From the NCBI RefSeq assembly GCF_002723955.1, contig NZ_BEWN01000003.1:434001-498000 (forward strand): a stretch of DNA of 64,000 nt, read 5' to 3'. Shown here one piece after another: positions 27,544 through 49,935 of this stretch (within the stretch, counting starts at the first letter, position 1; every line of letters begins with the position of its first letter). The stretch comes from Gluconobacter frateurii. Its GTDB lineage: Bacteria; Pseudomonadota; Alphaproteobacteria; Acetobacterales; Acetobacteraceae. The notes below the pieces were generated by a model. That model ran no database searches. It had not been told where the DNA came from and saw only the letters and a list, made by a program, of their open reading frames with translations. The position numbers were made by a program, and so were the translations under genes.

Positions 27544-27610
27544 GGACGCAGGAACTCCTTGTGGATCGTGATTCAAACCGGGTTTCAGCTTTGGGAAAAA
27601 ATATGCCTCA

Positions 27611-29093: not shown

Positions 29094-29501
29094 TTACGTT
29101 TTGGCAGGAAGAGGCAGCTCTCCTGTAAGGAACTGGCCCCGACCATGACCAAATGACCAATGAGCGTCCCCATTCTCAACAACGGATACCATCACGTCAG
29201 ATGGCAGAATTCCACATTCTGCTTCGAGACGTTCCGTCAGAAGACGATAAAAACCGGCAATCTGCTCCTCACCGCGTGGGCGGCTGAAAACCTGAAGAAG
29301 CACGACTTTTTCGGTACGAGGAATATCAAGTCCTGTATCCTCAACGATCATATGCGAAGGTTTATGTTCTGAGACGAGTTGATAACGGTCACGTCGAGGT
29401 ACTTGAAACGCTTCGAGCATGGCCTCGTGGGCGGCATCCAGAAGCGTCTTGACCTCGCTTTCTGACCGGCCTTCAAGAATATGGAAGTGAAGAAGCGGCA
29501 T
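29094..29501 (-). CDS. Tautomerase family protein (4-oxalocrotonate tautomerase-like, long form)
   Basis: About 135 residues. After removal of the start Met the protein begins with Pro (PLLHFHILEGRS), the catalytic proline of the tautomerase superfamily. The body shows the two-unit beta-alpha-beta pattern with VPRRDRYQLVSEH and a C-terminal WSFGHGRGQF ending found in the cis-CaaD/MSAD-like or DUF1904-like long forms. ATG 29501 has AGGAGA 8 bases before it. It lies between an aminotransferase and a permease; isomerisation of an enamine/imine or keto-enol intermediate of amine breakdown is plausible but inferred. Confidence 0.82.
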   Translation of the reverse strand: MPLLHFHILEGRSESEVKTLLDAAHEAMLEAFQVPRRDRYQLVSEHKPSHMIVEDTGLDIPRTEKVVLLQVFSRPRGEEQIAGFYRLLTERLEAECGILPSDVMVSVVENGDAHWSFGHGRGQFLTGELPLPAKT

Positions 29502-29539
29502 CGTTGTCTCCTGAGTGACGGAAAAGGACAGAATGCAGA

Positions 29540-30892: not shown

Positions 30893-31007
30893 TCCGCAAC
30901 CTTTGTCATTAAACGCTGCCGCGCCCGGAGAGGTGGGAATGCGGCGTTTCATGAATATTCTTCGTTCGGAACGAGATTGCCTATATACAGTTCCCTGGTT
31001 TATGAGT

Positions 31008-31041
31008 GAACCTGTACCGGTCAATCGAGCAGTACAGGTTC
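31008..31041. promoter_or_regulatory. Inverted repeat, likely MocR operator
   Basis: A perfect 10-bp inverted repeat, GAACCTGTAC at 31008-31017 and GTACAGGTTC at 31032-31041, separated by 14 bases, in the divergent region between the aminotransferase operon (-) and the MocR gene (+). A partial match to the half site (TATACAGTTCC) lies at about 30985. Spacing of about 24 bases between half-site centres is near two and a quarter DNA turns. A TTGACT hexamer overlaps the right side and could be a -35 box. Confidence 0.55.
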
Positions 31042-31117
31042 TTTTGACTTGGAAAATAGCCATGACTGCCCTTTCGAGGGCACTGGTTTAAAAATTTTCA
31101 GTGGCTCGTGCATCGAT

Positions 31118-32518: not shown

Positions 32519-32876
32519 AACGCGATCCATTTGAGGCGCAACAAAAGCTGCAACCGGAGTGATGTCGAAAGTTCGACGAGTCTACTGAAATTGAGGTGTT
32601 TTAAATCCTAAACACCCCTAGGCGTTTTATCAGCCTACTCAAGGACTTTTCAATCACCGAACAAAACCGTTGCGACTTCGATTTTATATTCATACACTTT
32701 GCAAAATGACGGCTATTGAAGCTCTCCAATGAGAAATTCCTTCTCTCGAAACGCTTTAATGATGCCTCAAGGAAAATGTGCTCTGGCGTCGATTGGCAAC
32801 ACCCTCGTCTCTTTGAGAGACTGATCGGGGGTCCGCAGTGGTTGTTACAGACACCCAAAGAGATGGAACAGAACTT
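32519..32876. other. Gap between MocR gene and TonB receptor
   Basis: About 350 bases without a recognisable gene. A 7-bp inverted repeat GGTGTTT...AAACACC at about 32595-32616 could be the MocR terminator. The receptor's promoter should lie in the right half. Confidence 0.4.
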
Positions 32877-35294
32877 GTGAGCAAAAGAACACCCCTCTCG
32901 GTCCATGTGAAGTGTCCTTCTCAGCGTCTTTCCTTTCAGAAAACCCTTTCATTATCCGCCCTTCTCTGCGTTCTTCCAGGCCAACTCTATGCTGCAGAAA
33001 GCTTGCCATCTTCCAGAAAAGCCGTCGCTCACTCAGCGCGAAAAGCATCCAACCCGGTAAAAAGAACGACGCATCGCGCCCCAACATCCGTTACTGGCGG
33101 CAACGAAACGATGAAGGTCAGCGCAAGCCGAGCAGTGTCACGGGGGGCTGAAAACGTTGTTTCAAAGGCGGTCATGGCGCAGTTCACGCCGGGAACAAGC
33201 GTCCTGAAAGCTGTAGACCGCCTGCCCGGCGTCAGCTTCAGTTCCACAGACCCCTTAGGTATCGATACATGGGGCAGTAGCATCTACGTTCGTGGATTTT
33301 TCATGGATCAGATCGGCGTAACGCTGGATGGTATCCCTCTGAATGATCAGACCTACGAGAGCAACAATGGACTGAACGTCATTCAGGCCTCGATTTCCGA
33401 TGATATCGAGCGCTCTGTCCTGTCGGAGGGACCAGGAGGCGTAGACGTTCCATCTACCTCTACACTGGGCGCTACTCTTCAGTTTGAAACGTCCGATCCC
33501 AAGGATAAGGCTGGCGGAAAGATTTCTCAGGGTTTCGGCAGCTACAGTTCCTATCGTACCTATATCCGGGCGGATACCGGCAAGCTGAATGCCTCGGGAA
33601 CCAAGGCTTATGTCGCTTATTCCCGAAGCCAGGAAGGCAAGTGGATGGGCGGCGGGGACCAGTTCCAGCAGCAGGTAGACGCAAAAATCGTTCAACCCAT
33701 CGGCCATGACAGCGTTATCAAAGCTTTCTTTAACTGGAGCGACATGCAGGAATGGGGATATCAGGACACGTCCCTTGCAATGCTCAAGACACTTGGCTGG
33801 CGTGTTCCGCATCTTTATCCAAACTACGGTTTGGCAACGGCCTATGCCGCTGGAGAAGTCTCCCTTCCAACCTCTGATGCGATTGAGGCCAACGGTGATG
33901 AACCTTACCTGTACGATGGCGGCCAGGCAGAAGTTGATTACACGGGTGGCCTGAACCTGGATCTGGTGCTGACGGATCGGCTTCGCTGGAGAAGCACGAT
34001 TTATGGAACAAGTCAGACGGGTTATTACACCTATTCCGATTATGAAACGCCATCAGCGGACACCGGCGCCCCCTTCTCGGAAGAGGTCTGGCAGAACCGG
34101 CAGGAGCGCTATGGTTTCACGACGTCCCTGAACTATCATATTGCCCATCATACAATCGACACAGGCGTCTGGTTCGAAAACAACAACCAGCAGGCAGATC
34201 TTTTCTGGTATAATGAGCCACTTCTTGGAACAGGTGCACCACTAAAAACTGTTGGCCCGTACAATACTTATGGAAAAGCCTTCATGCAGGGCTATGGTTT
34301 CGTATGGCATACCAACAACTTCACATATCATCTTGAAGATACGTGGCGTCCGTTGGAAAACGTCCGCATTTCTGCTGGCTTCAAGTCCATGATTTCCACT
34401 ACGGCAGGTGGTGCGAACTACAACAACTCGGATTATACTGGCGCGGATGCTCTTCCAAACGGCAGTATGACCGCTTCGGCTGCATTCCTTCCACATGTGG
34501 GAGGAAGCTGGCACTTCCTTAGCCATCATGAGCTTTATTTTGATCTTGCCGAGAATATGCGTTCTTATCAGGTGCTCCCGAATGGTGTGGGCAACTCCTT
34601 ATGGTCCGTTCAGGATCAGGAAACTTTTCAGCAACTTCGCCATACTGTGAAGCCGGAGCGTGACTGGGTTTATGCGGTTGGATATCGCTACACGGACAAA
34701 TATGTTCAGGCCAGCCTAGCAGGCTACCATGCCGACGCCAGCCACCGCCTCCAGTCTGCGACGGAAGGTACAATTACGAACCCGGTTTCAAGTGTAACAC
34801 AGACAAGCGTTCATACGAACGGAGTTGATGCCTCTCTGACACTCACTCCCTTCAAAGGACTGACACTCTATAACAGCGTCAGTTACAACCATTCGACTTA
34901 TGGCGGGAACATTACAACAGCCGATGGCATTTATTACACCAAAGGGAAGAAAGTCGTGAACTATCCTCAGTTCATGTACAAGGCGAATCTTTCCTATCGC
35001 TGGAAAGGCCTCGAAACACACTTCGATGTTCATTACTACTCAAAAAGGTACTTCAGCTACACGAACGACACGTCGGTTCCAGGCTACTGGCTAGCCAGCG
35101 CAGGTGCGAGATACAATGCCGGAAACTGGGGACTTGCCAAGAACATCACTTTTGACTTCAACGTCTATAACCTCTTCAATTCAAAATATATTTCCATGAT
35201 GGGTGAAAACGGCAACCCGATGTCCGGCGATTATCAGTCGCTTGAGCGCGGCTCGCCACGCCAGTTCTTTGGCACTGTCAGCACGGAATTCTGA
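32877..35294 (+). CDS. TonB-dependent outer-membrane receptor
   Basis: About 805 residues. An N-terminal signal sequence (hydrophobic stretch KTLSLSALLCVLPGQLYA) precedes a basic linker and a plug domain: SVLKAVDRLPGVSFSSTDPLG, SSIYVRGFFMDQIGVTLDGIPL. A long beta-barrel follows and the protein ends in Phe (GTVSTEF), the outer-membrane sorting residue. The start is uncertain: GTG 32877 has GAGATGG upstream, GTG 32838 and GTG 32907 are alternatives. It lies between two amine gene groups and could import a metal complex or cofactor for the periplasmic amine-oxidising enzymes, but this is only positional inference. A related receptor is at 57073. Confidence 0.88.
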   Translation: MSKRTPLSVHVKCPSQRLSFQKTLSLSALLCVLPGQLYAAESLPSSRKAVAHSARKASNPVKRTTHRAPTSVTGGNETMKVSASRAVSRGAENVVSKAVMAQFTPGTSVLKAVDRLPGVSFSSTDPLGIDTWGSSIYVRGFFMDQIGVTLDGIPLNDQTYESNNGLNVIQASISDDIERSVLSEGPGGVDVPSTSTLGATLQFETSDPKDKAGGKISQGFGSYSSYRTYIRADTGKLNASGTKAYVAYSRSQEGKWMGGGDQFQQQVDAKIVQPIGHDSVIKAFFNWSDMQEWGYQDTSLAMLKTLGWRVPHLYPNYGLATAYAAGEVSLPTSDAIEANGDEPYLYDGGQAEVDYTGGLNLDLVLTDRLRWRSTIYGTSQTGYYTYSDYETPSADTGAPFSEEVWQNRQERYGFTTSLNYHIAHHTIDTGVWFENNNQQADLFWYNEPLLGTGAPLKTVGPYNTYGKAFMQGYGFVWHTNNFTYHLEDTWRPLENVRISAGFKSMISTTAGGANYNNSDYTGADALPNGSMTASAAFLPHVGGSWHFLSHHELYFDLAENMRSYQVLPNGVGNSLWSVQDQETFQQLRHTVKPERDWVYAVGYRYTDKYVQASLAGYHADASHRLQSATEGTITNPVSSVTQTSVHTNGVDASLTLTPFKGLTLYNSVSYNHSTYGGNITTADGIYYTKGKKVVNYPQFMYKANLSYRWKGLETHFDVHYYSKRYFSYTNDTSVPGYWLASAGARYNAGNWGLAKNITFDFNVYNLFNSKYISMMGENGNPMSGDYQSLERGSPRQFFGTVSTEF

Positions 35295-35538
35295 AGACAT
35301 GCTGGAATCGTGCCTGTCGCATGATAATAGCCGGACAATGGAGAGGGCGCTTCCGCTCTCACCCATCCTCCTCGTGCAAATGCCGTATGAATATTCAGGA
35401 TGACCGCTCTCCCCGCAGATCTTTACATTGACACCACACGCATCCCGCAAGGATCAATCAAAACGGAAATGGATCTTTGCGAAACCATAACAAAATGCCA
35501 TCATCCTTTTCCATATTGCTCATAAGGATATGAATTAT

Positions 35539-36732
35539 ATGCGTAAACTCCCAACGACATTAGCGACCATGACAGCGTTTCTGCTGGCAACCGTCGCTTC
35601 AGGAGCGTGTGGGAACGCATATGCCGACGATCCTGTCCTTCAGACGGAGGAGAGCGATATTATCAAGCTTTCCCCAGTGACCGATCATCGCATCCTAGTT
35701 CAGGATGCCGTCGGACATCATGCAAAAGACGGGCGTGTCTATGTTGTGGATGCAGACAAGGGCAAGCTCCTTGGCATGGTCCAGGCTGCCTACAACGGAA
35801 ACGTTGTACAGGACCCAAAAGGACGGGCGTTCTATGTGGGTGAAACGGTCTGGTCCCGCGGCAACCGTGGGGACCGCGCTGATCTGTTGGCGTCCTACGA
35901 TCCGCAAACCCTTGAGATCGTGAATGACCACCTCCTTCCTGGACGGGCACTCGTTACACCCAAGAAAAATGATCTGACCATCAGCAGCGATGGCAGCCGC
36001 GTGTATGTCTATGACATGGTACCCACCAATGCGGTGCATGTCATAGATACTGCAAGCCACAAGCTCAGTCTGAATGTTGATCTTCCAGGCTGTGCCCTGA
36101 CTTATCCATGGGGCAACGCCGGGTTCACGTCCATCTGTGCCGATGGCAGTCTTGCCAATGTCAGTCTCAATGCTGGGAAGGCAGACGTCACCCACACGAA
36201 GCCGTTCTTTGACCCGGAGAAGGATGCTGTCTTCGAACACAGTCCAACACGCCGGACTGACGGCAAAACCTGGTTCATTTCCTATAGTGGCCTCGTTTAC
36301 CCTACGGCACTGTCTGCACAAACGAAGATCGACACAGCCTGGTCCATTCAGGAAGCCGCCGGAATGAAAGCTGCTCCAGCGGCTGACAGTCCTTTCACGG
36401 TAACCTGGCGCCCCGGCGGTTGGCAGCTCTCAGCCTTGCATTACGCAACAGGGCATCTCTTCGTAGCGATGCATCAGGGCACGTTCTGGACGCACAAGAC
36501 AGCCGGAACGGAAGTCTGGGAACTTGATGTAGCAACCCACAAGCTGATCCGGCGCATCAAACTGCCGAAGCCAAGCTCCATGGTCGGTGTAACGCAGGAT
36601 GCCAAGCCACTGATGTTCACCTCGGATGAAGCCGGAGATCTCTTCATCTGGGATGCAACAACCGGGAAGATGTTACGCAAGATGCCTCATCTGGGTGACG
36701 ACCTGTATTTTACAGTCGCGCTGGGGGAATAA
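35539..36732 (+). CDS. mauB: Amine dehydrogenase large subunit (MauB/AauB-type)
   Basis: About 397 residues with an N-terminal signal sequence (LATMTAFLLATVASGACGNAYA). The rest is a seven-bladed propeller pattern with repeated short strands, e.g. GRVYVVDADKGKLLG, SRVYVYDMVPTNAVHVIDT and FIWDATTGKML, as in the heavy chain of methylamine or aromatic amine dehydrogenase. It would form a periplasmic heterotetramer with the TTQ-bearing small subunit encoded at 37833. ATG 35539 is preferred over ATG 35530 because AGGA lies about 11 bases before it but only 2 before the other. It opens a tightly overlapped operon: B, E, D, A, then two cytochromes. Whether the substrate is methylamine, an aromatic amine or another primary amine cannot be fixed here. 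Confidence 0.88.
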   Translation: MRKLPTTLATMTAFLLATVASGACGNAYADDPVLQTEESDIIKLSPVTDHRILVQDAVGHHAKDGRVYVVDADKGKLLGMVQAAYNGNVVQDPKGRAFYVGETVWSRGNRGDRADLLASYDPQTLEIVNDHLLPGRALVTPKKNDLTISSDGSRVYVYDMVPTNAVHVIDTASHKLSLNVDLPGCALTYPWGNAGFTSICADGSLANVSLNAGKADVTHTKPFFDPEKDAVFEHSPTRRTDGKTWFISYSGLVYPTALSAQTKIDTAWSIQEAAGMKAAPAADSPFTVTWRPGGWQLSALHYATGHLFVAMHQGTFWTHKTAGTEVWELDVATHKLIRRIKLPKPSSMVGVTQDAKPLMFTSDEAGDLFIWDATTGKMLRKMPHLGDDLYFTVALGE

Positions 36733-37250
36733 TGACCAGTTTCGTCATGCAAATGGCTGGTGCAGTGACTGCCGACACAACAGGTGTTCTGTTTCTGGCA
36801 TCCGCAGGGTCCAAGGCTTTGGATATCCCACGGTTTGCATCCGATATTGCTGCATATCGTCTCATCCCGCTCGATCTGGCCTTCCCGGTTGCCTATGGGC
36901 TGATTGCTATTCAGGCTGCTTTGGGTGCGTGGCTATGGAGTGGCTGGCTTGCGGCTATGGCAGGAATTGTAGCGTCGCTCCTGCTGTTATTCTTTGCCTT
37001 CGTGATGGGCATCAATGTCGCGCGAGGACGTACAACCCTATCATGCGGATGCCTTCCGGGAAGCAACAGCCAACTCTCATGGAGAGCTGTGGGGCGGAAT
37101 ATCGGCTTGGCCCTCATGGTGCTTCTCACTGGTTTTCTACCAAGGCCCAGTGGTGCTTTCCTGAACGCTGAGGCTCTCCTTGCAGGCATCAGCATTCTGT
37201 TGATTGCACTGGCTTCTGTTCATCTACGCCAGCCGGAACAGCACATATGA
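36732..37250 (+). CDS. mauE: MauE-like integral membrane protein
   Basis: A 172-residue protein with about four to five membrane segments and a C-G-C motif in TTLSCGCLPGS. It matches MauE, an inner-membrane factor (DoxX/VKOR-like fold) needed with MauD for correct disulfide formation in the amine dehydrogenase small subunit. The start overlaps the mauB stop (TAATG), implying translational coupling. Confidence 0.85.
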   Translation: MTSFVMQMAGAVTADTTGVLFLASAGSKALDIPRFASDIAAYRLIPLDLAFPVAYGLIAIQAALGAWLWSGWLAAMAGIVASLLLLFFAFVMGINVARGRTTLSCGCLPGSNSQLSWRAVGRNIGLALMVLLTGFLPRPSGAFLNAEALLAGISILLIALASVHLRQPEQHI

Positions 37251-37846
37251 TGCTCCTCCTCACGATCTCCACTATTCTGCTGACCTGCCTGACGGTCGGG
37301 CTGGCAGTGATCGTCTTTGCGTTGGCACGTCAGATCGGCGTTCTCCATGAGCGGACAGCTCCCATCGGGCAGCAGCCTGTTCTTGCAGGGTTGCAGGTTG
37401 GTCAGGCTCTTCCCCGCATTACGGCACGGCTGTTGGATGATAGCCCCTTCCCGCTTGGAGGAATGCATACGACCGACCGATCAAACGTGCTGATGTTCAT
37501 GTCCGCAGATTGTCCCGTCTGCAAAAAAACGCTGCCTCTCGTACAGGCCCTGGCGGTGGCTCATGACGTTGACCTGACCCTTATAGGAGAAGGAGATATT
37601 GCTGCACTGCGGGCGATGACTGACAGGATGCACCTTGGACACACACCGCTTGTGACCAGTCAGGAATTGCTGCTGCTCCTTCAGGTTGGTCGCTTGCCAA
37701 CACTCGTTGCACTCGACAGCCGCGGTGTCATTACGGCGCGGGATGTCGCCAGCACACGCGCACAGGTCGAAGCCATTCTTGGCACCCTGCCTGTCCCAGT
37801 TTCTTCTTCCTTTGAAACCAAGGAGCTTCTGCATGACGCAGTCTGA
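37247..37846 (+). CDS. mauD: MauD-like thioredoxin-fold protein
   Basis: A 199-residue protein with an N-terminal membrane anchor (LLLTISTILLTCLTVGLAVIVFALA) and a periplasmic thioredoxin fold holding the redox pair in FMSADCPVCKKTLP. It fits MauD, the disulfide oxidoreductase/isomerase for the cysteine-rich small subunit. It starts inside the mauE stop (ATGA) and overlaps mauA by 14 bases. A second, Cys-altered relative is at 39296-39901. Confidence 0.88.
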   Translation: MMLLLTISTILLTCLTVGLAVIVFALARQIGVLHERTAPIGQQPVLAGLQVGQALPRITARLLDDSPFPLGGMHTTDRSNVLMFMSADCPVCKKTLPLVQALAVAHDVDLTLIGEGDIAALRAMTDRMHLGHTPLVTSQELLLLLQVGRLPTLVALDSRGVITARDVASTRAQVEAILGTLPVPVSSSFETKELLHDAV

Positions 37847-38420
37847 TCCCACTTCTGGACGCGAGATGCGTGCCAATCCGCTGGATCGCGTCACGGAACG
37901 CCTGATCCGACATGTTGCCGGTCATAGCTCTCGGCGAAGCCTGCTCGGCCGTCTGGGAGCATGGGCAACATTTGGCGCACTGGTGCCAGTTCTCCCAATA
38001 GAACGCGTGTCTGCCGCAACGCCGGCGAAGGCAGCATCGCTTCCAAAGGCGCCCTCGCCTTTTGCTGCGAAAGCACAGACTACCGATCCTACAGTATGCA
38101 ATTACTGGCGGTATTGCGCGATCGATGGGTTCCTTTGCGCGTCCTGTGGAGGAGGCATCCATAGCTGCCCCCCGGGAACACGTCCTTCTCCTACATCCTG
38201 GATTGGAACCTGTTTCAATCCAGGTTACGGTCAATCCTACCTTGTCGCCTATCGCGATTGCTGTGGTCAGGATGCCTGTAGCCAACCTGCCTGCCTTGGA
38301 ACTGACGGAGATCAGCCAAGCTATCGTCCGCAGGCCAATAACGACATCATCTGGTGCTTCGGGACAGGTGCCCTTGTCTATAACTGTTCAACATCCGTTA
38401 TCGTCGGGAATGCTTCATGA
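37833..38420 (+). CDS. mauA: Amine dehydrogenase small subunit with TTQ cofactor (MauA/AauA-type)
   Basis: 195 residues. A long Tat-type leader contains SSRRSLLGRLGAW and a hydrophobic core. The mature domain has 12 cysteines, consistent with the six disulfides known in this family, and the two tryptophans that form tryptophan tryptophylquinone: Trp in TSWIGTC and Trp in NDIIWCFG. The catalytic-region Asp is in YRDCCG and the biogenesis Asp in AIDGF. The CNYWRYCAIDGFLC opening and PSPTSWIGTC resemble aromatic amine dehydrogenase, while NDIIWCFG resembles methylamine dehydrogenase. ATG 37833 has AAGGAG 7 bases upstream. Oxidises a primary amine to aldehyde and ammonia in the periplasm. Confidence 0.92.
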   Translation: MTQSDPTSGREMRANPLDRVTERLIRHVAGHSSRRSLLGRLGAWATFGALVPVLPIERVSAATPAKAASLPKAPSPFAAKAQTTDPTVCNYWRYCAIDGFLCASCGGGIHSCPPGTRPSPTSWIGTCFNPGYGQSYLVAYRDCCGQDACSQPACLGTDGDQPSYRPQANNDIIWCFGTGALVYNCSTSVIVGNAS

Positions 38421-38872
38421 TCAAACGTACAGCTTTTCTTTTCACCTGCATCCTGGCCGCGACACCCGTAGCCTATGCTGAAGATGGCCAGTCTGTTTAC
38501 AATAGCAACTGCAGCGTCTGCCATCAAGCTGGCGGAATTGGTTCCCCGGGCCAGTTTCCACCCCTTACTGGACGCGTTGGCAAGATTGCAGCCTCCCCGG
38601 AAGGCAAGACCTATATTGCGGATGTTCTGTTGAATGGGCTGCATGGCGCCATTCAGGTCTCCGGCGCGAGCTATATGGGCTTCATGCCGTCTTTCAAGGC
38701 ACTCAGCGACGATCAGATTGCCGCAGTCCTGAGCTATGTGTCGTCCCTGAACACGCCGGGAGCACCGGCTTTTACGGCTGATGACATCAAGACTGCCCGG
38801 GCAACGCCCAAAAAGGCGAAGGATCTCATTGCTGAACGGAAAGCCCTTGATGCCGCGCACCCCCTTCCCTGA
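38417..38872 (+). CDS. Periplasmic c-type cytochrome (mono-heme)
   Basis: 151 residues with a cleavable signal peptide (IKRTAFLFTCILAATPVAYA) and one heme site, CSVCH. A late Met in GFMPSF could be the axial ligand. Its start overlaps the mauA stop (ATGA), so it is made with the amine dehydrogenase and is the likely electron acceptor in place of amicyanin or azurin, neither of which is encoded in the window. Confidence 0.88.
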   Translation: MIKRTAFLFTCILAATPVAYAEDGQSVYNSNCSVCHQAGGIGSPGQFPPLTGRVGKIAASPEGKTYIADVLLNGLHGAIQVSGASYMGFMPSFKALSDDQIAAVLSYVSSLNTPGAPAFTADDIKTARATPKKAKDLIAERKALDAAHPLP

Positions 38873-39299
38873 GATCCTTGCAACCCTGGCTCTGACATTG
38901 TGTGGAACGTCAGCGGCCCAGGCGGCCGTGCAGACCCATACCGTGACCAATTACCTGACTCACTGCGGGGGATGTCACGGTATTGAAGGCATCTCTGGGC
39001 GGACGTTTATCCCGGTACTGCGCGATCAGGTCGGTATCTTTACCTGCTCCGCAGAAGGGCGAGCCTATCTTGCCCGTGTGCCGGGCATTTCAATGTCCCT
39101 GATCCGGGATGATCAGGAACTGGCGGATGTCCTCAATTTCGTTCTGTTCCAGCTTGGAGGAAAGAGCACTCCGGCTGGAACAACTCGCTATTCAGCGTCC
39201 GAAGTGCATGAATTAAGAGCTCATCCCATTTCAACGACAGATCTTTTATCCCTAAGAGCGGAAGTTCTAAGCCGGGCTCAGGCGAGCTGCCCTCACTAG
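38850..39299 (+). CDS. Second periplasmic c-type cytochrome (mono-heme)
   Basis: 149 residues, signal peptide (EILATLALTLCGTSAAQA) and heme site CGGCH, with two further Cys (TCSAEG and a C-terminal ASCPH). Overlaps the preceding cytochrome gene by 23 bases, so co-translated. Probably a second carrier in the same chain. The stop overlaps the convergent MauD-like gene by 4 bases. Confidence 0.85.
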   Translation: MPRTPFPEILATLALTLCGTSAAQAAVQTHTVTNYLTHCGGCHGIEGISGRTFIPVLRDQVGIFTCSAEGRAYLARVPGISMSLIRDDQELADVLNFVLFQLGGKSTPAGTTRYSASEVHELRAHPISTTDLLSLRAEVLSRAQASCPH

Positions 39300-39901
39300 G
39301 ATGCAAGGGCGCCCGGATTTGCAGTCATGAAGGATTGCAAAGACGAATGGCCCGTTTCCTGAACTCTTAGCAAACTTTCCAGATGCTCAAGACTGTTGAC
39401 CAGTCCGCGTACTACGACATGCCCATTGGCATTTAGCAGGACCGCAAAAGGCACACGGTCCACGCCCAGCTGCCGCCCGATCGTGGCTTCGTTGACGAAC
39501 GAGCGTGCCGGAATACCCAGCATGGAAATCGCGCTCTTCTGGGCATCCAAAGCGTCGTCCCCGCAAAAAAGCAGCTCCAGCTTTTCCCGACGGGTGAAGT
39601 CCACGGCGATAGGAACCATCTTGCGTGAGATGGGGCATGAGCCCGAGACAAACAGTAAAAGCTGGCTTTTCCCGTTAGAATTCATACCGCCGATAGAAAT
39701 GAGATCTCCTGAGAGGGTCTCCAACTCGGTCGCGTCGAGCTCATTAACTGCGGACAGGGTCGGCGCGAGGGCCCCTAAAGGGGCAATACGCCGGTAAAAA
39801 TATCGCACCTGGCCGAGTAAGGCGATCACCACACAGACCATTGCAATCAGTACGAGCCATAGAAGCGCCTGAGCGCCCAATAATGCAGATGGATCAACCA
39901 T
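39296..39901 (-). CDS. Second MauD-like thioredoxin-fold protein with altered redox motif
   Basis: 201 residues with an N-terminal membrane helix (LLWLVLIAMVCVVIALLG) and a thioredoxin-like domain. The position of the CxxC pair reads SGSCPISRKM, so the second Cys is Ser. A further Cys occurs in LLFCGDD. It follows petC by 68 bases on the same strand and looks like the last gene of the cytochrome bc1 operon. It may be a chaperone or a single-Cys disulfide isomerase rather than an oxidant. Compare MauD at 37247. Confidence 0.8.
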   Translation of the reverse strand: MVDPSALLGAQALLWLVLIAMVCVVIALLGQVRYFYRRIAPLGALAPTLSAVNELDATELETLSGDLISIGGMNSNGKSQLLLFVSGSCPISRKMVPIAVDFTRREKLELLFCGDDALDAQKSAISMLGIPARSFVNEATIGRQLGVDRVPFAVLLNANGHVVVRGLVNSLEHLESLLRVQETGHSSLQSFMTANPGALAS

Positions 39902-39969
39902 ATTATTCGTCCCGCTCAGGAAAATATTGGAACACTAACTTTGCATCTGATCGCTTAAGATCGAAAAGA

Positions 39970-40662
39970 TTATTCAGGGGACTTCAATCGTTTCCAGACA
40001 CGGCGCTTCAGTATCCCGAGCAACACCGCAAGACCGGCAAGATAAGCCAGAACGAAGATCCCCGTCTGATGTCTGGCCTTAAGGTGAGGTCGTGCTGTCC
40101 AGTTAAGGAACGCCGTGACGTCATTGGCCATCTGGGGGATCGTTGCAGTGGTGCCGTCGGCATATTTCACCTGTCCGTCATGCAGCGGTTGTGGCATGGC
40201 GATATGGAGGTGTGGCATGGCCGTATTGTAGAATGCGCCCAGTGGTAATTTGGTGCCTGCAGGAGGCGCCGTATAAGACTTCAGAATGTGAATGATCCTC
40301 TGAGGACCACCCTCCTGTGTCAGGGCCAGCCTGGAGAAATCAGGCGGAAGACCACCATGATTGGCCATCCGCGCCATGCTCTCGCTGGGATATGGCGAAC
40401 CGATATGATCTGACGGATGCGCAGGGCGTGTCTTTGGATCGCCATCCTCATCCAGACCATCGGGCACCTGATGCTGACTGGCATAGCTCTTGATATCCGG
40501 CACGGATACGCCGAGGCCCGTCAGATCCGAATACGTCACGTAATTCAAGCTATGGCATGAGCTACAGATCTGTCGAAAAACCTGAAACCCGCGCTGCTCC
40601 GGCGTCGAGGCATGGGCTGAGCCCCCTGCCAGAAGAAGCGTAGCGATGAAGAAACGTTTCAT
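39970..40662 (-). CDS. petC: Cytochrome c1 of the bc1 complex
   Basis: About 230 residues. Signal peptide (KRFFIATLLLAGGSAHA), heme site ICSSCHSLNYVTY, and a C-terminal membrane anchor (IFVLAYLAGLAVLLGIL) as in cytochrome c1. Conserved DYV-like and GGLPPDFSRLA, GAFYNTAMPHLHIAMP segments support the call, with the Met ligand in the last. The start overlaps petB (ATGA). Confidence 0.93.
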   Translation of the reverse strand: MKRFFIATLLLAGGSAHASTPEQRGFQVFRQICSSCHSLNYVTYSDLTGLGVSVPDIKSYASQHQVPDGLDEDGDPKTRPAHPSDHIGSPYPSESMARMANHGGLPPDFSRLALTQEGGPQRIIHILKSYTAPPAGTKLPLGAFYNTAMPHLHIAMPQPLHDGQVKYADGTTATIPQMANDVTAFLNWTARPHLKARHQTGIFVLAYLAGLAVLLGILKRRVWKRLKSPE

Positions 40663-41858
40663 CCCCTGGGCTCCTGCAAGCTTGAGGGAAGAGGTTTCGG
40701 AATTTCCACGCGGGGAAGATAGGGAAGCAGGATCAGAAAATAGAGATACCAATATGTTACTGCGATCCGGCTAATCCAGAGCCAGAAACCCGTGGGAGGA
40801 TGCATTCCTGCCGCTCCAAGCGCGATGAACGCCAGAAAGAGAATGGGCAGTGCAATGCGCAGAATAGGTCTGTAACGGGCAGAGCGCACTGGCGATGCGT
40901 CCAGCCAAGGTACGGCGAAGAGAACACCAAGACTTCCTGCCGCCAGCAGAAGGCCACCAAGCTTTGAAGGGACGGCGCGCAGAATTGCGTAGAACGGCGC
41001 GAAGTACCATTCGGGCGTAATATCCCTTGGCGTTACAAGAGGGTTAGCCTGAGCATAATTGTCGGCCAGCGTCAGGATATCAGGCGCGAAGAAAATCAGC
41101 CCGGCATAAACCATCAGAAAGAGGCAAAGGCCCAGCCCGTCCTTGGTTGTGTAATACGGATGAAAAGGAACCGTATCATCGGGCTTGGCTGGCTCGATAC
41201 CTGTTGGATTGTTGGAACCCGCGACATGTAAGGCCGCGACGTGCAAAACGACAAACCCGACAATGGAAAAAGCCGTCACGAAATGCAGGACATAAATACG
41301 ATGAAGCGCTGTGTTTCCCAGCCCTTCTCCCCCTAACAGCCATGCAGCGAGGGGTTTTCCGATCACTGGAAGGGAGTTCAGTGCGTTGATGACGACTGTT
41401 GCCCCCCAATACGACATCTGCCCCCATGGAAGGATATAGCCTGCAAAAGCTGTCGTCATAACGAGCAGGAGCAGGCCGAGCCCCGTTAGCCAAAGCAGTT
41501 CACGGGGGGCTTTGTAAGAGCCATAGTAGAGGCCACGCCCGATATGCACATACAGAGATGCGAACAACATGGAGACACCCCCCATGTGAATTGCCCGGAC
41601 AAGCCATCCTGACGAAACCTGACGATCGATCATCTCGATACTGGCAAAGGCCTCTGTCACGGTCGGGGTATAATTCAGCGCAAGAAAGATGCCGCTCAGG
41701 ATCAGAAGACCCAAGGCAATCGTCGCGAAAGCACCGAAATTCCAGAGATAATTGAGATTCCGCGGCATCGCGAAATCAACATATTCCCGCCGGAAAGCCG
41801 AGATCACAGGCAGCCGGGCTTCAAGCCATTCTGACAGAGAATTGGAGCGTTCAGTCAT
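40659..41858 (-). CDS. petB: Cytochrome b of the bc1 complex
   Basis: A 399-residue, eight-helix protein. Motifs include LNYLWNFGAFA, GGVSMLFASLYVHIGRGLYYGSY and LPWGQMSYWGATVV with heme-binding His residues, and TPEWYFAPFYAILR, the PEWY quinol-oxidation loop. It lies 9 bases after petA and overlaps petC. Confidence 0.95.
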   Translation of the reverse strand: MTERSNSLSEWLEARLPVISAFRREYVDFAMPRNLNYLWNFGAFATIALGLLILSGIFLALNYTPTVTEAFASIEMIDRQVSSGWLVRAIHMGGVSMLFASLYVHIGRGLYYGSYKAPRELLWLTGLGLLLLVMTTAFAGYILPWGQMSYWGATVVINALNSLPVIGKPLAAWLLGGEGLGNTALHRIYVLHFVTAFSIVGFVVLHVAALHVAGSNNPTGIEPAKPDDTVPFHPYYTTKDGLGLCLFLMVYAGLIFFAPDILTLADNYAQANPLVTPRDITPEWYFAPFYAILRAVPSKLGGLLLAAGSLGVLFAVPWLDASPVRSARYRPILRIALPILFLAFIALGAAGMHPPTGFWLWISRIAVTYWYLYFLILLPYLPRVEIPKPLPSSLQEPRG

Positions 41859-41867
41859 AGTGGCCGC

Positions 41868-42524
41868 TCAGATCTGCTGGATGTTGGCAATATCGAAATC
41901 GGGATCACCTTTGCTCAGCCCGATACGAAGATGGGTTTCCGAAACCATGGTGACAGGCGGAACCGGTAGGTTATACGGCGCGGGAGCATTCTTGTAGGCC
42001 CGTCCGGCAATATCAAACTGCGATCCGTGACAGGGACAGGCATATTTCCCCGACTGATCCGCTGGGGATGGCGTATCGTAGGAAGGCACACAGCCCAGAT
42101 GGGTACATATTCCAATCAGCACACCAATTTCAGGCACGACAGACCGATGCCAGTTGGTTGCATCCTTGGGCTGCTGAAGGATTTTAGACTCCGGGTCCCG
42201 CAAACGTTGCGCTGCGCCAGGAGCCTGCAAAGACGCAAGCATAGCGGCCGTTCGGCGTTGCACAAAAACAGGCCAGCCCCGCCATGTCACGACGGTCTGC
42301 TGTCCAGGCGGAATTGCAGAAAGATCAACATCGACCGTGTCATCTTCCCCTACCCGACTGTTCCGCGTTCCGTTCAGACTATCCAGAAAGGGATAGGCCA
42401 GAGCACAGGCACCCGCACATCCCACTCCTGCTGTCACGGTCGCAAGTACGTCACGTCGGCGGGTCCCGCCTTTGCCTGATGAACACTGAGTACTGGAAGA
42501 AGTCGGTGCGCCGTCCTGGGTCAT
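41868..42524 (-). CDS. petA: Rieske iron-sulfur protein of the bc1 complex
   Basis: 218 residues. A twin-arginine leader (TRRRDVLATVTAGVGCAGACALAYP) also serves as membrane anchor. The 2Fe-2S ligands are in CTHLGCVP and CPCHGSQFD. First gene of petA-petB-petC-MauD-like. It is divergent from the aldehyde dehydrogenase genes with 181 bases between starts, so promoters of both operons lie there. Confidence 0.95.
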   Translation of the reverse strand: MTQDGAPTSSSTQCSSGKGGTRRRDVLATVTAGVGCAGACALAYPFLDSLNGTRNSRVGEDDTVDVDLSAIPPGQQTVVTWRGWPVFVQRRTAAMLASLQAPGAAQRLRDPESKILQQPKDATNWHRSVVPEIGVLIGICTHLGCVPSYDTPSPADQSGKYACPCHGSQFDIAGRAYKNAPAPYNLPVPPVTMVSETHLRIGLSKGDPDFDIANIQQI

Positions 42525-42705
42525 CGGATCCTACTCGAATAAGCTGTTATGATCATCCAAGGGCAACGAAATGGTGTCAATCTTAAACAACTGTTTTATT
42601 CGCCTCCCAGCAATGTTCTTGCAATCCGATCATTTGCTGGGGATGGTAGGAAAGTCATATCTGTTCAGAATCAATTGAAATTCACGGAACGGGGATTGGG
42701 TCAAG

Positions 42706-43161
42706 ATGATAACGATCCGGATTAACAACGAGTCACATCAGCTTGATGTGACCGATGACATGCCCCTTCTCTGGGTACTACGGGACATCCTCGGTCTGAC
42801 AGGCACCAAATATGGATGCGGTGTCGCTCAATGCGGAGCGTGCACGATCCACATCGATGGAATTCCGACCAGAGCATGCCAGCTTCCCGTCTCGCTGATT
42901 GGTGACCGTCACATCACGACAATTGAAGCTATTGGCAACACACGGGAAGGAGCCCGCATACAGGCAGTCTGGTTACAGAATCAGGTTATCCAGTGCGGCT
43001 ACTGCCAGTCCGGACAGATCATGGCGGCTACAGCGCTGCTTCGGGACAACCCGAACCCTACAGACGACGATATTGACGATGCCATGTCCGGGAATATCTG
43101 CCGGTGCGGGACTTATGTCCGTATTCGGGAAGCCATCCATCAGGCCGCCAACAATGCGTAA
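42706..43161 (+). CDS. 2Fe-2S subunit of a periplasmic molybdenum hydroxylase/aldehyde dehydrogenase
   Basis: 151 residues: an N-terminal plant-type ferredoxin domain with GTKYGCGVAQCGACTIHID, and a C-terminal helical 2Fe-2S domain with CGYCQSGQI and NICRCGTY, the xanthine-dehydrogenase-family pattern (IorA-like, AldG-like). No signal peptide, so it is probably exported with the Tat-targeted catalytic subunit encoded next. Confidence 0.92.
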   Translation: MITIRINNESHQLDVTDDMPLLWVLRDILGLTGTKYGCGVAQCGACTIHIDGIPTRACQLPVSLIGDRHITTIEAIGNTREGARIQAVWLQNQVIQCGYCQSGQIMAATALLRDNPNPTDDDIDDAMSGNICRCGTYVRIREAIHQAANNA

Positions 43162-45325
43162 GCCACGCGATATCGGAGCGATATTGAACCGCCGTGCTTT
43201 TTTCCGAGGGACGCTTGCTTTTGGCGGAGGAATGCTTCTCTCCGGAATGATCCCAGGGTTGCCTGGTGCGCAGGCTGATACAAAGGGCGTTTTCATTCCC
43301 AACGCATTCATTCGGATTGATCGTAGTGGTGGGATCACTCTCATCATGCGTCATGCCGAAATGGGACAGGGCATTTACACCGGGATCGCGATGCTCATCG
43401 CGGAAGAACTGGAAGTCGACCTAGAACAGGTCACACTTGAAGCCGCCCCTGCCGATCCTTCCCGTTATACGGACAGTGCCGCGGGCGAGGAAGTAACGGG
43501 AGGATCAGCCTCTACACGGGATAGCTGGCTCCCCTTGAGGCAGGCAGGCGCCGCCGCACGGATCATGCTGGTGGCAGCGGCTGCGTCACGCTGGAACGTT
43601 CCACCTGAGAGTTGTGCCGCGCAGCACGGACAGATCATTCACGTGCCAACCGGCCGGACCTTATCTTACGGAGATCTGGCGGAGGAAGCCGCCCTTCAAA
43701 AGGTGCCTGAAAAAATCATTTTGAAAGATCCTTCAACATTCCGCCTTATTGGAACAAGCCCTCAAAGACTTGATACCAAGCCAAAAAGTAATGGCACTGC
43801 CATTTTCGGGATGGACGTGCGCGTTCCCGGTATGAAGATCGGCCGCATCATGGCCAGCCCGATTCAGAGAGGACGGCTGATCAGTTATGACAGCGTCGCA
43901 GCACGCGCTATCCCGGGAGTTGTGGATATCATAACGCTTCAAGATGTTATTGCGGTCATTGGTGATCATAGCTGGGCTGCGATCAAAGGTCTGGAAGCAG
44001 CAAATCCGCAATGGGATTCCGGCCCGCACGCTGCGGTCTCTACAAAAACTCTCATGGATGACCTGCGAAGGGCTTCAGACAGAACGGGACTGGTTGCGAA
44101 GAATACCGGAGACGTTGACGCTGCGTTAGCAGCCTGTTCGCACCGAATTGACGCCGTCTATGAACTCCCATTCCTCGCTCATGCGGCACTGGAACCTATC
44201 AATACAACCCTTCATATCCGGCCAAACGGCGCAGATGTATGGGTTGGGACACAGGTTCCTGTTCGGGCACGGCAGGAAGTTGCTAACGCGACCGGCTTGC
44301 CTCCAGAAAAAATCGCCATTCATAACCACGTTATTGGTGGAGGGTTCGGGCGCAGACTGGATTCAGGATCGATTGGCCAAGCTGCCAGGCTCGCGAAGCA
44401 GATGCCCTACCCCGTAAAACTGTTCTGGACACGTGAAGAAGACATCCAGCAGGACCAGTTTCGCCCTTTTTACTACGACCGAATTTCTGCGGGGTTAAAC
44501 AAACAGGGGCGCATCGCAGCCTGGAAACACCGCACAACCGGGTCATACGTAACGGCAAGATGGGCACCGGAGGGACTTCAAAACGGGCTTGATACAGATA
44601 CGGTCGATGGAGCTGTTGAAACGCCCTACGACATTCCCGTCCAGAGAAATGAGTCCGTTCAGTGCGAACCTGAAGGTCTGACGACCTTATGGTGGCGCGG
44701 CGTTGGCCCGACGCATAACGTATTCGTTGTGGAAAGCATGATGGATGAACTGGCGCATCTTGCCGAAAACGACCCTCTTGATTTCCGCCGGTCCATGCTT
44801 GGCCATTCACCACGAGGCCTGAAAGTTCTGAACGAAGCAGCAAGAAAATCGGGTTGGGGCACGCCACTTCCTTCTGGTCATGGGCGAGGAATTGCCCTGC
44901 ATTATTCATTTCAGACCTGGGCAGCGACGGTACTGGAAGTGCAAGTTACAGATGATAATGCAATCCGCTTGGTCCGGGCCGATACGGCTGTAGATTGCGG
45001 CCCAGTCGTTTTTCCAGATGCTGTTAGAGCTCAGATCCAGGGTGGACTGATCTTTGGCCTGACAATGGCCCTTTACAACGAGATTACTGTAACAAATGGC
45101 CGGGTAGATCAGAGTAATTTTCACGACTATCGCATGATGCGCATCAATGAGGCACCCGATATCAGAGTGCATCTGGTACCAGACCTCTCGGCTGACATTG
45201 GAGGTATCGGAGAAGTCGGCACAGTGGCCGCAGCTCCAGCATTGGCTAACGCTATTTTTGCCGCCACCGGCCATCGTCTGCGTAAAATTCCGTTTCTTTC
45301 TCAGATGGCTGGGAAGAGCGCATGA
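43154..45325 (+). CDS. Molybdopterin-binding subunit of an aldehyde dehydrogenase/isoquinoline-1-oxidoreductase-like enzyme
   Basis: About 723 residues with a twin-arginine signal (NRRAFFRGTLAFGGG) and the molybdopterin cytosine-dinucleotide-binding fold in two tandem halves. Visible motifs include MRHAEMGQGIYTGIAMLIAEEL, IGGGFGRRLDSG and GIGEVGTVAAAPALANAI with the catalytic Glu near the C-terminus. The architecture is that of IorB and of the membrane-bound aldehyde dehydrogenase of acetic acid bacteria. Its start overlaps the 2Fe-2S gene by 8 bases and its stop overlaps the triheme cytochrome (ATGA). Likely oxidises aldehyde to carboxylic acid in the periplasm; the neighbouring amine dehydrogenase supplies a plausible aldehyde. 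Confidence 0.9.
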   Translation: MRKPRDIGAILNRRAFFRGTLAFGGGMLLSGMIPGLPGAQADTKGVFIPNAFIRIDRSGGITLIMRHAEMGQGIYTGIAMLIAEELEVDLEQVTLEAAPADPSRYTDSAAGEEVTGGSASTRDSWLPLRQAGAAARIMLVAAAASRWNVPPESCAAQHGQIIHVPTGRTLSYGDLAEEAALQKVPEKIILKDPSTFRLIGTSPQRLDTKPKSNGTAIFGMDVRVPGMKIGRIMASPIQRGRLISYDSVAARAIPGVVDIITLQDVIAVIGDHSWAAIKGLEAANPQWDSGPHAAVSTKTLMDDLRRASDRTGLVAKNTGDVDAALAACSHRIDAVYELPFLAHAALEPINTTLHIRPNGADVWVGTQVPVRARQEVANATGLPPEKIAIHNHVIGGGFGRRLDSGSIGQAARLAKQMPYPVKLFWTREEDIQQDQFRPFYYDRISAGLNKQGRIAAWKHRTTGSYVTARWAPEGLQNGLDTDTVDGAVETPYDIPVQRNESVQCEPEGLTTLWWRGVGPTHNVFVVESMMDELAHLAENDPLDFRRSMLGHSPRGLKVLNEAARKSGWGTPLPSGHGRGIALHYSFQTWAATVLEVQVTDDNAIRLVRADTAVDCGPVVFPDAVRAQIQGGLIFGLTMALYNEITVTNGRVDQSNFHDYRMMRINEAPDIRVHLVPDLSADIGGIGEVGTVAAAPALANAIFAATGHRLRKIPFLSQMAGKSA

Positions 45326-46512
45326 AGTACTTTCTGCTTGTCTTCGCAGTCATTATGGCAATCTCCGCTCGATCAGCACAGGCACAAACTGACCTGATTG
45401 AACGGGGAAAAACTCTGTTTCGGGCGGCTGACTGTGCGGCCTGTCACCTTTCCAGCGATGGTCAGACCTTGTCAGGAGGAAAGGCTTTTCCTCTCCCTTT
45501 CGGCACAGTTTATGCCGTGAATATTACGCCTGATCGCGAGACAGGCATCGGGGCTTATACGGACGAGCAATGGCTTAGAATGATGCGCACCGGTGTCGAT
45601 CGGAACGGGCGGCATCTCTATCCCGTCATGCCTTACACATCTTATACATTCCTGAACGACGCTGACACGTTGGCAATCAAGGCCTATCTCTTCACTCTCA
45701 AGCCCGTTCAGGCCAAGGCACCAGAAAACCGCTTACCCTTTCCTTTCAACCAACGTTGGGTAATGACTTTCTGGAATTGGTTCAACAATCCAGACCGAAG
45801 GATGACTACGGATCCGCACCGAACGCCGGAATGGAACCGAGGGGCCTATCTTGTGGAAGCACTCGGGCATTGCGATCAATGCCATACGCCGCGCAACTTC
45901 ATGTTCGGACTGAGCGGCAAGGCTTATGCCGGAACAGTCCAGGTCGGGTGGAGAGCCTATAATCTGACATCAGATACCGAACACGGGCTTGGTGGTTGGA
46001 GCGACAGTGAGCTTTTCGAATATCTTTCTACGGGTTATGCCCCTCACCGCGGACCGGCCTCCGGTCCGATGGCCGAAGCAATCGAAAATAGCCTGCGATA
46101 TCTGCCTGCAGAAGATATCCGTGCCATGATTGTTTACCTGCGAAGCATCCCTGCCCGTCCCAACGGACCACAACGTGGAAAACGCGTGCCAGGTGCAAGC
46201 GGCGAGAATGAGGACGTGGGCCGGCATATTTTTCAACAGGCGTGCATGGGATGCCATCTTGAAAATGGGGCCGGGCGACAGTCTGACTGGGGAGCTTTGA
46301 AAGGTGCGCACAGTTTGAGCGATCCTGCGGCCACCAACATCATAGGTGTTCTTCGAACTGGCACATCAATCAAGACTGAACATGGGAAAATGGCAATGCC
46401 CTCGTTTACAAAGGCTTATACACCCCAGGAATTGGCGGCAATATCAGAGTACGTACTCGGCCATTTCGGAGGCGTTAAAGCTCAGATCGAACCTGACAGG
46501 TTCAAAAACTAG
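45322..46512 (+). CDS. Triheme c-type cytochrome subunit of the aldehyde dehydrogenase
   Basis: 396 residues, signal peptide (FLLVFAVIMAISARSAQA) and three heme sites CAACH, CDQCH and CMGCH, spaced as in cytochrome subunits of alcohol and aldehyde dehydrogenases of acetic acid bacteria. It carries electrons from the molybdenum enzyme to ubiquinone at the membrane. ATGA overlap with the preceding gene. Its 3' end overlaps the convergent regulator gene by 11 bases. Confidence 0.92.
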   Translation: MKYFLLVFAVIMAISARSAQAQTDLIERGKTLFRAADCAACHLSSDGQTLSGGKAFPLPFGTVYAVNITPDRETGIGAYTDEQWLRMMRTGVDRNGRHLYPVMPYTSYTFLNDADTLAIKAYLFTLKPVQAKAPENRLPFPFNQRWVMTFWNWFNNPDRRMTTDPHRTPEWNRGAYLVEALGHCDQCHTPRNFMFGLSGKAYAGTVQVGWRAYNLTSDTEHGLGGWSDSELFEYLSTGYAPHRGPASGPMAEAIENSLRYLPAEDIRAMIVYLRSIPARPNGPQRGKRVPGASGENEDVGRHIFQQACMGCHLENGAGRQSDWGALKGAHSLSDPAATNIIGVLRTGTSIKTEHGKMAMPSFTKAYTPQELAAISEYVLGHFGGVKAQIEPDRFKN

Positions 46513-47044
46513 GGGGCGTAGACGCACTTATCAAGTGACAGGGCTCGTTGCCTATGTTCCGGAAACGATGGGGGATGTTGCTGTCAAAATAGTAAGCATC
46601 TCCTGGCCCGAGGATCGCGCGCTGATCTCCCGCCGTGACTTCCAGCTCCCCGCGGACAATCACGCCCCCTTCTTCACCTTTATGCTGAAGCATGGTCTTT
46701 CCGGTGTCCGTCCGAGGCGCATAGGTCTCGTTTAAAATCTGCAATGCACGATTGTTCATGGAGGTTCCGACCTGCCGCAACGAAATGCCTCGACCACCAA
46801 TATCCCGCAATTCGACGGCCTTGTAGAAAAGCTTACGCTCTTCTGCCTGCTCGAAGGCAAAAAATTCTGAAAGTGACATTGGAAATGCATCGACGATCTG
46901 TCGCAGCAACCCGACTGATGGATTTATTGCATTCGATTCAATGAGAGAAATTGTTCCATTTGCGACACCACACCGCCGGGCCAACTCGCGCTGGGAAAGG
47001 CCGCGTCGCGTTCGAAGCTCATAGAGCGTTCCGCCAATATCCAT
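46502..47044 (-). CDS. XRE-family regulator with cupin domain (PuuR-like)
   Basis: 180 residues. N-terminal helix-turn-helix (LRTRRGLSQRELARRCGVANGTISLIE) and C-terminal cupin (MLQHKGEEGGVIVRGELEVTAG, GDAYYFDSNIPHRFRN). PuuR, the putrescine-responsive repressor, has the same architecture and its LLRQIVDAFPMSLSEFF region is similar. It closes the amine island and is the best candidate for putrescine- or amine-dependent control of it. No clear operator can be named. Confidence 0.87.
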   Translation of the reverse strand: MDIGGTLYELRTRRGLSQRELARRCGVANGTISLIESNAINPSVGLLRQIVDAFPMSLSEFFAFEQAEERKLFYKAVELRDIGGRGISLRQVGTSMNNRALQILNETYAPRTDTGKTMLQHKGEEGGVIVRGELEVTAGDQRAILGPGDAYYFDSNIPHRFRNIGNEPCHLISASTPPSF

Positions 47045-49921: not shown

Positions 49922-49935
49922 AGGGGCATCGGATC

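Follow-up and report, generated by a model that had tools for sequence, protein, structure and literature searches.

Does the amine dehydrogenase operon of Gluconobacter frateurii, which lies against genes for a cytochrome bc1 complex and a molybdenum aldehyde dehydrogenase, encode consecutive steps of one pathway, and where would the product and the electrons go? The genes occupy positions 35530-47044 of the window, the whole 64,000-nucleotide stretch of DNA analyzed here (G000:C3:434001-498000, where G000 is this 3.3-Mb G. frateurii genome). Comparative analysis gives good support to a reading in which two putative enzymes act one after the other in the periplasm. On balance, the locus is probably a catabolic island, apparently moving horizontally, that would convert amines via aldehydes to acids in the periplasm, followed by uptake and transamination of the product, with an island bc1 complex replacing the native one. 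Parts of the gene set also adjoin one another in other bacteria, giving bc1 a testable role in acetic acid bacteria.

The core set consists of mauBEDA, genes for two monoheme cytochromes, mauD2, petABC, aldSLC, and a gene for a PuuR-like regulator. Every element named in an earlier note on this DNA was recovered by profile searches, motifs, and translations, with mauB starting at 35530 rather than 35539. The gene list given there holds for all the genes that it includes but lacks mauD2, a TonB receptor gene, a left block at 24840-32515, and the absence of mauF and mauG. The unit extends to the left, and both the receptor and the left block recur near mau in other genomes. The short gaps claimed for the locus were borne out: adjacent genes of the mau-cytochrome group share 1-26 bases in their initial delimitation (23 if cytB begins at the ATG at 38850, as its translation suggests), genes also overlap within the pet and ald groups, apart from petB and petA, which are 9 bases apart, and the groups are separated by 68 and 181 bases. 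By-eye reading of the translations found N termini that resemble Sec or twin-arginine export leaders.

An amine dehydrogenase beside a molybdenum aldehyde dehydrogenase

The light chain gene mauA (37833..38420, plus strand) encodes a protein with a twin-arginine-like leader that matches PF02975 (Me-amine-dh_L, 8.5e-48) and exceeds the cut-off of TIGR02659 (201.8 versus 196.85 bits). Residues W123 and W174, which we take, by transfer through alignment, to be those forming the tryptophan tryptophylquinone (TTQ) cofactor, are invariant in all 15 aligned chains. The heavy chain (mauB, 35530..36732; PF06433, Me-amine-dh_H, 6.9e-51), the membrane accessory protein MauE (36732..37250; PF07291, MauE, 2.4e-22), and the thioredoxin-like MauD (37247..37846; CPVC in the translation; TIGR02661 at 119 bits, below the equivalog cut-off of 188.6) are all encoded on the same strand. 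MauBA is an apparently exported TTQ amine dehydrogenase of the superfamily that holds methylamine dehydrogenase (MADH) and aromatic amine dehydrogenase (AADH), with TTQ formation and the reaction predicted from sequence. MauB fails the MADH equivalog TIGR02658 (177.3 bits, cut-off 454.45). Against heavy chains from the PDB it scores 138-144 bits with MADH (58 with one distorted record) and 123-126 bits with AADH, and MauA scores mostly 133-135 bits (range 107-183) with MADH light chains and 123-125 bits with those of AADH.

No mauF, mauG, or amicyanin (mauC) gene is present among all genes of 35530-47044, plastocyanin-family genes elsewhere not having been searched. Outside the island, G000 encodes PF03150 proteins at three loci. 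A 453-aa open reading frame (ORF) at C3:179111 is similar to MauG and to a diheme enzyme from Burkholderia, with Tyr where the FY position aligns; it was rejected as MauG, since mau-negative Gluconobacter also encode proteins with similar scores and the mau-positive Acetobacter genome G169 has the ~480-aa kind only, with orthology judged from length and score. G169, rated 100% complete, encodes a single PF03150 protein, of peroxidase-like length and score. TTQ enzymes thus appear to occur naturally without mauG in the cluster, including one from a genome rated complete.

Two further genes bear on maturation and electron transfer. The monoheme cytochrome gene cytB (38850..39299, plus strand; one CxxCH, no Pfam match) stands beside mauA in 77 of 80 mau loci. 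Its AlphaFold2 model (mean predicted local distance difference test 85.6) has Thermus cytochrome c552 as the closest PDB fold (E 0.0028), a likeness limited to a c552-like fold, and CytB is the best candidate for a MauA partner, either as electron acceptor or in maturation. The product of mauD2 (39296..39901, minus strand; TIGR02661 at 116.6 bits, cut-off 188.6) is MauD-like, with CPIS instead of CPVC in its translation. The form CP[VI]S, in which the second Cys is lost, is shared by relatives at 13 of 14 distinct acetic-acid-bacterial loci, the aligned part of L126 reading CLVS, and loci of other groups (L159, L163, L180) have only a CPxC form. The second monoheme cytochrome, CytA (38417..38872, plus strand), has one CxxCH and matches PF00034 (3.3e-13).

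The ald genes, all on the plus strand, encode a 2Fe-2S subunit (aldS, 42706..43161; PF01799, Fer2_2, 6.8e-29), a molybdopterin subunit (aldL, 43154..45325; MoCoBD_1, 4.4e-35; best PDB match 8gy3_C, an aldehyde dehydrogenase large subunit), and a triheme cytochrome c subunit (aldC, 45322..46512; three CxxCH; PF00034, 1.2e-21). The 2Fe-2S, molybdenum cofactor (Moco), and triheme subunits of an AldFGH-type enzyme are thus accompanied by its GxGE motif (GGIGE) and a twin-arginine-like leader on AldL, both read from the sequence by eye, consistent with the Tat export and the triheme cytochrome proposed in the earlier note. AldSLC is a molybdenum aldehyde dehydrogenase, for which an aldehyde is the predicted substrate. 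A second large-subunit gene of G000, at C1:159566, is 33% identical to aldL, and the island enzyme is a paralogue distinct from it.

A scan of GTDB contigs found at least 590 stretches encoding relatives, within and outside Acetobacteraceae, the best 80 of which form the set of named mau loci. Neighbors were counted in these at E <= 1e-10 in flanks of at most 9 kb, so that more distant partners are missed. Relatives of cytB (77 loci) and cytA (36) are joined by aldL (28), aldS (25), and aldC (10), by genes for an NAD aldehyde dehydrogenase (13), the omega-aminotransferase AptA (11), a DAO-family oxidoreductase (10), and a permease (9), and by TonB receptor (7), MocR (6), PuuR (5), and pet (4-5) relatives. 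Twenty control regions, a non-random set of Acetobacteraceae bc1 regions away from mau (one of 8.5 kb) that is lax for ald-like genes, contain no aldS, aldL, aldC, AptA, DAO, permease, or MocR relative; cytA is found in three, TonB in two, and the NAD aldehyde dehydrogenase and PuuR in one each.

Conserved synteny of mau, pet, and the molybdenum enzyme within Acetobacteraceae, the check proposed in the earlier note, was found in several genera. The order TonB-mauBEDA-cytAB-mauD2-petABC-aldSLC is kept in the Gluconobacter thailandicus locus L037 (83-98% protein identity per gene), and the same order from TonB to aldC occurs in four Asaia-group loci (L038, L040, L041, L043) at 49-87% identity. 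In Acetobacter (L039, L245, L256), contiguous mau genes and mauD2 are followed by ald and petBCA on the opposite strand; L046, L051, and L125 run ald, PuuR, TonB, permease, mau, mauD2, NAD aldehyde dehydrogenase, and DAO; and in Komagataeibacter (L058/L061), mau and ald face each other. The acetic-acid-bacterial framing of the earlier note holds for these genera but is too narrow, as the pairing reaches Sphingomonadales and gammaproteobacterial metagenome-assembled genomes (MAGs). In Novosphingobium loci (e.g., L163-L165), aldS and aldL lie upstream of mau on the opposite strand. In L159, L173, L180, L186, L187, and L189, from Sphingomonas oleivorans and proteobacterial MAGs, ald lies directly 3' of cytB, and L173, L180, and L189 group together mocR, AptA, a MauD-like gene, DAO, mauB, mauA, cytB, aldS, and aldL. 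As a separate observation, some ald genes are in pieces in L040 and L043, as are pet and cytB in L040, through sequencing error or decay.

Among 397 sampled Acetobacteraceae genomes, 37 encode mauA (one by a weak, interrupted match, G122); the gene is present in 3 of 26 Gluconobacter and 37 of 49 Acetobacter-group genomes. Of the 18 mau-positive genomes searched, 17 have an aldL relative at 48% identity or more; of 11 mau-negative Gluconobacter, one has a 45% relative and the other ten have matches of at most 34% or none, a comparison confounded by kinship, since the mau-positive set belongs mostly to other genera. Adjacency of mau and ald by chance was rejected on the basis of the synteny, the controls, and this genome-level co-occurrence. 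The claim of sequential action outside the cytoplasm is thus backed by synteny and by leaders read by eye, but the pairing is not obligatory, as one mau-positive Gluconobacter (G390) shows.

Origin of the bc1 complex

The bc1 genes, on the minus strand, encode cytochrome c1 (petC, 39970..40662; PF02167, Cytochrom_C1, 8e-69), cytochrome b (petB, 40659..41858; Cytochrome_B, 3.2e-58), and a Rieske protein (petA, 41868..42524; Rieske Pfam 1.3e-7; TIGR01416 174.4 bits, cut-off 97.4). The motifs CTHLGC, CPCHGS, PEWY, and CxxCH are all in place, and heme b ligands were seen by eye only. The earlier note listed this operon, which is indeed present, but assigned it no role; here it seems to be island-borne. 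The simplest reading appears to be that bc1 arrived as island cargo and that the native copy then decayed, because the only petB match in the whole of G000 lies in the island and the native site is decayed both in G000 and in G. thailandicus (genome G218).

That site was located through the mau-negative Gluconobacter genome G323, whose CyoB is 98.8% identical to that of G000 and whose bc1 region is collinear with G000:C3:115-138 kb and G218:C146, both of which lack petABC. In G. thailandicus, petC residues 134-229 remain there, together with the start of petA (by eye); in G000, petC has left faint traces (E 0.003-0.008), and the site also contains a second cytA and a gene for a diheme enzyme. 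DNA identity between the two species is 92% in the island and 82-85% in the native-site region. The G000 PetB is 96% identical to that of G. thailandicus, 80-82% to three Asaia copies, and 78-79% to that of G323. Across the 11 mau-negative Gluconobacter, seven have one petB match and four have none. A plain housekeeping neighbor was at first favored on the strength of cytA-linked bc1 genes in mau-negative Gluconobacter, and was dropped for G000 given the decayed native site. The diheme protein at the G000 native site (L234:12204-13103, 299 aa) is itself MbnH-like (214.8 bits, cut-off 362.85), with a weaker likeness to MauG; it adjoins the second cytA at the position of the G323 bc1 genes.

In a petB tree, the Asaia/Gluconobacter copies and the Acetobacter petBCA copies form separate, well-supported clades; therefore, either the association of bc1 with the amine genes has two or more origins, or it was deeply rearranged. 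Within the Acetobacter group, the contiguous petBCA type is present in 30 of 37 genomes with mauA and in 4 of 12 without it (p = 0.0036, ignoring kinship; about half of the 30 assignments were made by tree and the remainder by identity and copy number), and other bc1 genes occur in 35 of 37 and 10 of 12, respectively (p = 0.25). Classing petB by identity alone (>=53%) had given 37/37 versus 5/12 (Fisher 9e-6), and 28/37 versus 9/12 for the other type (p = 1); both were dropped after the tree showed mixed clades. Nine of the 37 mau-positive genomes have a petB no more than 15 kb from mauA. Separately, in five genomes (G169, G333, G272, G402, G432; loci L217, L218, L248, L252), a non-petBCA bc1 lies ~3.6-4 kb from a gene for a ~480-aa peroxidase-like PF03150 protein, an arrangement that suggests a peroxidase-linked bc1.

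Fate of the acid and of the electrons

In the proposed mechanism, exported MauBA would act in the periplasm on a primary amine, oxidizing it to yield an aldehyde plus ammonia, and AldSLC, likewise outside the cytoplasm, would oxidize the aldehyde further to the acid. The recurring neighbors suggest that the acid may be an omega-amino acid, beta-alanine or, less surely, gamma-aminobutyrate (GABA), derived from a diamine or polyamine fragment. The permease (27611..28912, minus strand; PF00324, 1e-74) would import it, AptA (29540..31063, minus strand, start uncertain; NF052567 equivalog, 637.6 bits, cut-off 500) would transaminate it, and the NAD aldehyde dehydrogenase (26116..27576, minus strand; PF00171, 3.5e-158; no export leader noted) would oxidize the semialdehyde. 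The permease is GABA-permease-like but is not that equivalog, since TIGR01773 scores 316 bits against a cut-off of 678. AptA, the permease, and the PuuR-like regulator together may point to diamines or polyamine fragments as substrates. If so, a route of diamine or polyamine breakdown that begins in the periplasm would be spread across Alpha- and Gammaproteobacteria.

Every left-block gene type that was counted, the tautomerase not being among them, recurs near mau elsewhere. Relatives of the FAD-dependent, DAO-family oxidoreductase (24837..26204, minus strand; PF01266, 4.1e-68; best NCBIfam model L-pipecolate oxidase, below cut-off) are found in L036, L046, L051, L058, L061, L124-L126, L173, L180, L184, L186, L187, L189, and others; those of the NAD aldehyde dehydrogenase, at 71-86% identity, in L036, L046, L051, L058, and L124-L126; and those of AptA at 59-61% in L173, L180, L184, and L189 and at 71-73% in Komagataeibacter L058-L061. 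Direct comparison of the window with L036 also matched the DAO/NAD aldehyde dehydrogenase pair. Of 40 mau loci fetched from Acetobacteraceae, 20 contain a relative of the TonB receptor.

As for the electrons, those from TTQ would leave via CytB and CytA and enter the quinone pool through AldC or the island bc1, which may stand in for the lost native copy. A PF00115 profile search of G000 found two proteins, one of 667 aa whose length and sequence are bo3-like and one of 419 aa that lacks the HH and HPEVY motifs (by eye); it found no standard heme-copper cytochrome c oxidase, bd oxidases not having been searched. Because of this lack, the bo3-type ubiquinol oxidase is proposed as the sink for the quinone-pool electrons. 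The three PF03150 loci could encode peroxidases. TTQ electrons must pass either to quinone or to a peroxidase; within the island, the candidates are AldC and bc1, between which sequence does not choose. The 419-aa protein resembles a COX1-like protein of Acetobacter described in passages of one study (PMC10715153).

Several other readings were weighed against the proposed pathway. The earlier note's "oxidative fermentation", in which amines would be oxidized for nitrogen supply or biogenic-amine detoxification and the acid released, accords with the habit of acetic acid bacteria of excreting the acids that they form when oxidizing alcohols and sugars in the periplasm. It is nevertheless judged unlikely and its acid release is not supported, because the permease, the omega-aminotransferase, and the NAD aldehyde dehydrogenase of the same gene set would import and degrade an amino acid, and these genes and the FAD oxidoreductase recur with the unit. 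An aromatic amine dehydrogenase unit converting tyramine or phenethylamine to arylacetic acids would share its BEDA order without mauF and mauG with the aau cluster, and AADH heavy chains from the PDB do match MauB; it is about equally improbable, as most MADH chains outscore AADH somewhat for both subunits. In passages of a Caulobacter study (PMC3281772), moreover, AptA prefers short beta-amino acids and alpha-methylbenzylamine (highest activity with beta-alanine, beta-aminobutyrate, and alpha-methylbenzylamine), and those passages give no value for GABA. That MauBA and AldSLC are merely neighbors with separate substrates is the least probable reading. It would suit a variable region, whose right flank shows no collinearity with five Gluconobacter genomes and includes a repeated element, and it would suit L036, which has mau and pet without ald; it fits poorly with the several arrangements in which the genes are linked across Alpha- and Gammaproteobacteria, with the absence of ald from all 20 control regions, and with co-occurrence in 17 of 18 genomes.

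A further alternative concerns the direction of bc1. Cytochrome subunits of acetic-acid-bacterial dehydrogenases pass electrons to quinone, and AldC alone could therefore reduce it. Conversely, CytA and CytB might pass TTQ electrons to cytochrome c1, with a reversed island bc1 using the acid-outside proton gradient to reduce ubiquinone for bo3. The apparent lack of a standard cytochrome c oxidase in G000 favors this, as does the seeming tendency of bc1 to move with the amine genes, which it adjoins in two bc1 clades. The island Rieske sequence reads CPCHGSQFD, where QFD presumably marks the Tyr165 position. Acetous Rieske proteins generally have Phe for Tyr165, with lower activity (passages of PMC10715153), and petI of Acidithiobacillus ferrooxidans is a precedent for a reverse-running bc1 (passages of PMC2754497). 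Flow direction is not readable from sequence, however, and bc1 may instead feed a peroxidase; reversal is possible but rather doubtful. A still more elaborate version, thought unlikely, is a self-contained periplasmic amine-respiring module independent of cytochrome c oxidase, in which the TTQ enzyme and AldSLC would feed the small cytochromes, the cargo bc1 would run backward as a cytochrome c:quinone reductase, and TTQ would mature without MauG, whose replacement might be CytB or the CPxS MauD2. If true, this version would account for the retention of bc1 by some acetic acid bacteria.

Returning to the catabolic island with its cargo bc1, several observations tell against parts of it. In G390, no aldL relative was found at E <= 1e-30, and beyond acetic acid bacteria the aldL relatives are only 32-45% identical members of a large family. 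In three mau-negative Gluconobacter inspected, petABC adjoins a cytA homologue without mau. PetB of G323 is only 75% identical to that of G378 and 66% to that of G302, and the petB tree does not separate the G000 copy from those of Asaia, G323, and G378 (support 84/60); this strong divergence of bc1 within Gluconobacter and that node make fast divergence in place an alternative to transfer. Seven of the 37 mau-positive Acetobacter-group genomes have the other bc1 type only and pet accompanies just 4-5 of the 80 loci, so mau needs no dedicated bc1. CcoN-like and CcoO-like genes, recognized by eye as a cbb3-like oxidase, lie in G169 (L224, G169:C4:19500-23500, on a 43-kb contig); thus, some mau-positive relatives own a cytochrome c oxidase. 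Finally, an omega-amino substrate cannot be general, because AptA is found in only 11 of the 80 loci.

Flanking genes and comparison with known systems

The remaining genes of the unit are a tautomerase-family gene (29094..29648, minus strand; PF14552, 4.5e-26), a MocR-type regulator with GntR and aminotransferase domains (31049..32518, plus strand), the TonB-dependent receptor (32838..35294, plus strand; PF00593, PF07715), and the XRE-cupin regulator (46502..47044, minus strand). The last was called PuuR-like in the earlier note; the gene is present, but it scores 141 bits with the PuuR model, below the cut-off of 211. Comparison of the right flank with five Gluconobacter genomes gave scattered matches and no collinearity, and the insertion site was not located. 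Elsewhere in the window, a single ORF at 49192-51006 fuses a DeoR-type regulator to a Gfo/Idh/MocA oxidoreductase, an ORF of 2839 codons spans 7315-15834, and a short stretch at ~56440-56691, of which G339 has many copies and G323 has two, is probably a mobile element.

With the methylotroph mau cluster, whose canonical order is mauB-E-D-A, the island shares that order, the TTQ light chain, MauE, and MauD. It differs in its heavy chain (177 versus 454 bits at the MADH cut-off), in the lack of mauF, mauC, and mauG in the cluster, and in having two small cytochromes, a bc1 complex, and a molybdenum aldehyde dehydrogenase instead. The Alcaligenes faecalis aau cluster also has the BEDA order without mauF and mauG, but the island sequence is about equally far from AADH as from MADH, and the island links an aldehyde dehydrogenase, bc1, a TonB receptor, and the AptA block. 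AldSLC has the same 2Fe-2S, Moco, and triheme subunits as the acetic-acid-bacterial membrane-bound aldehyde dehydrogenase (8gy3), the best PDB match of AldL, but is a separate paralogue alongside the 33% identical gene of G000. Like the A. ferrooxidans petI complex, a bc1 that in an acid-outside organism comes with a cytochrome and a donor pathway of its own (passages of PMC2754497), the island bc1 may have a dedicated donor; here, however, that donor would be an amine dehydrogenase. The component enzyme families of the island are all known. Among the matches listed for the open-access subset of the literature searched, no description of a mau-pet-ald unit was found.

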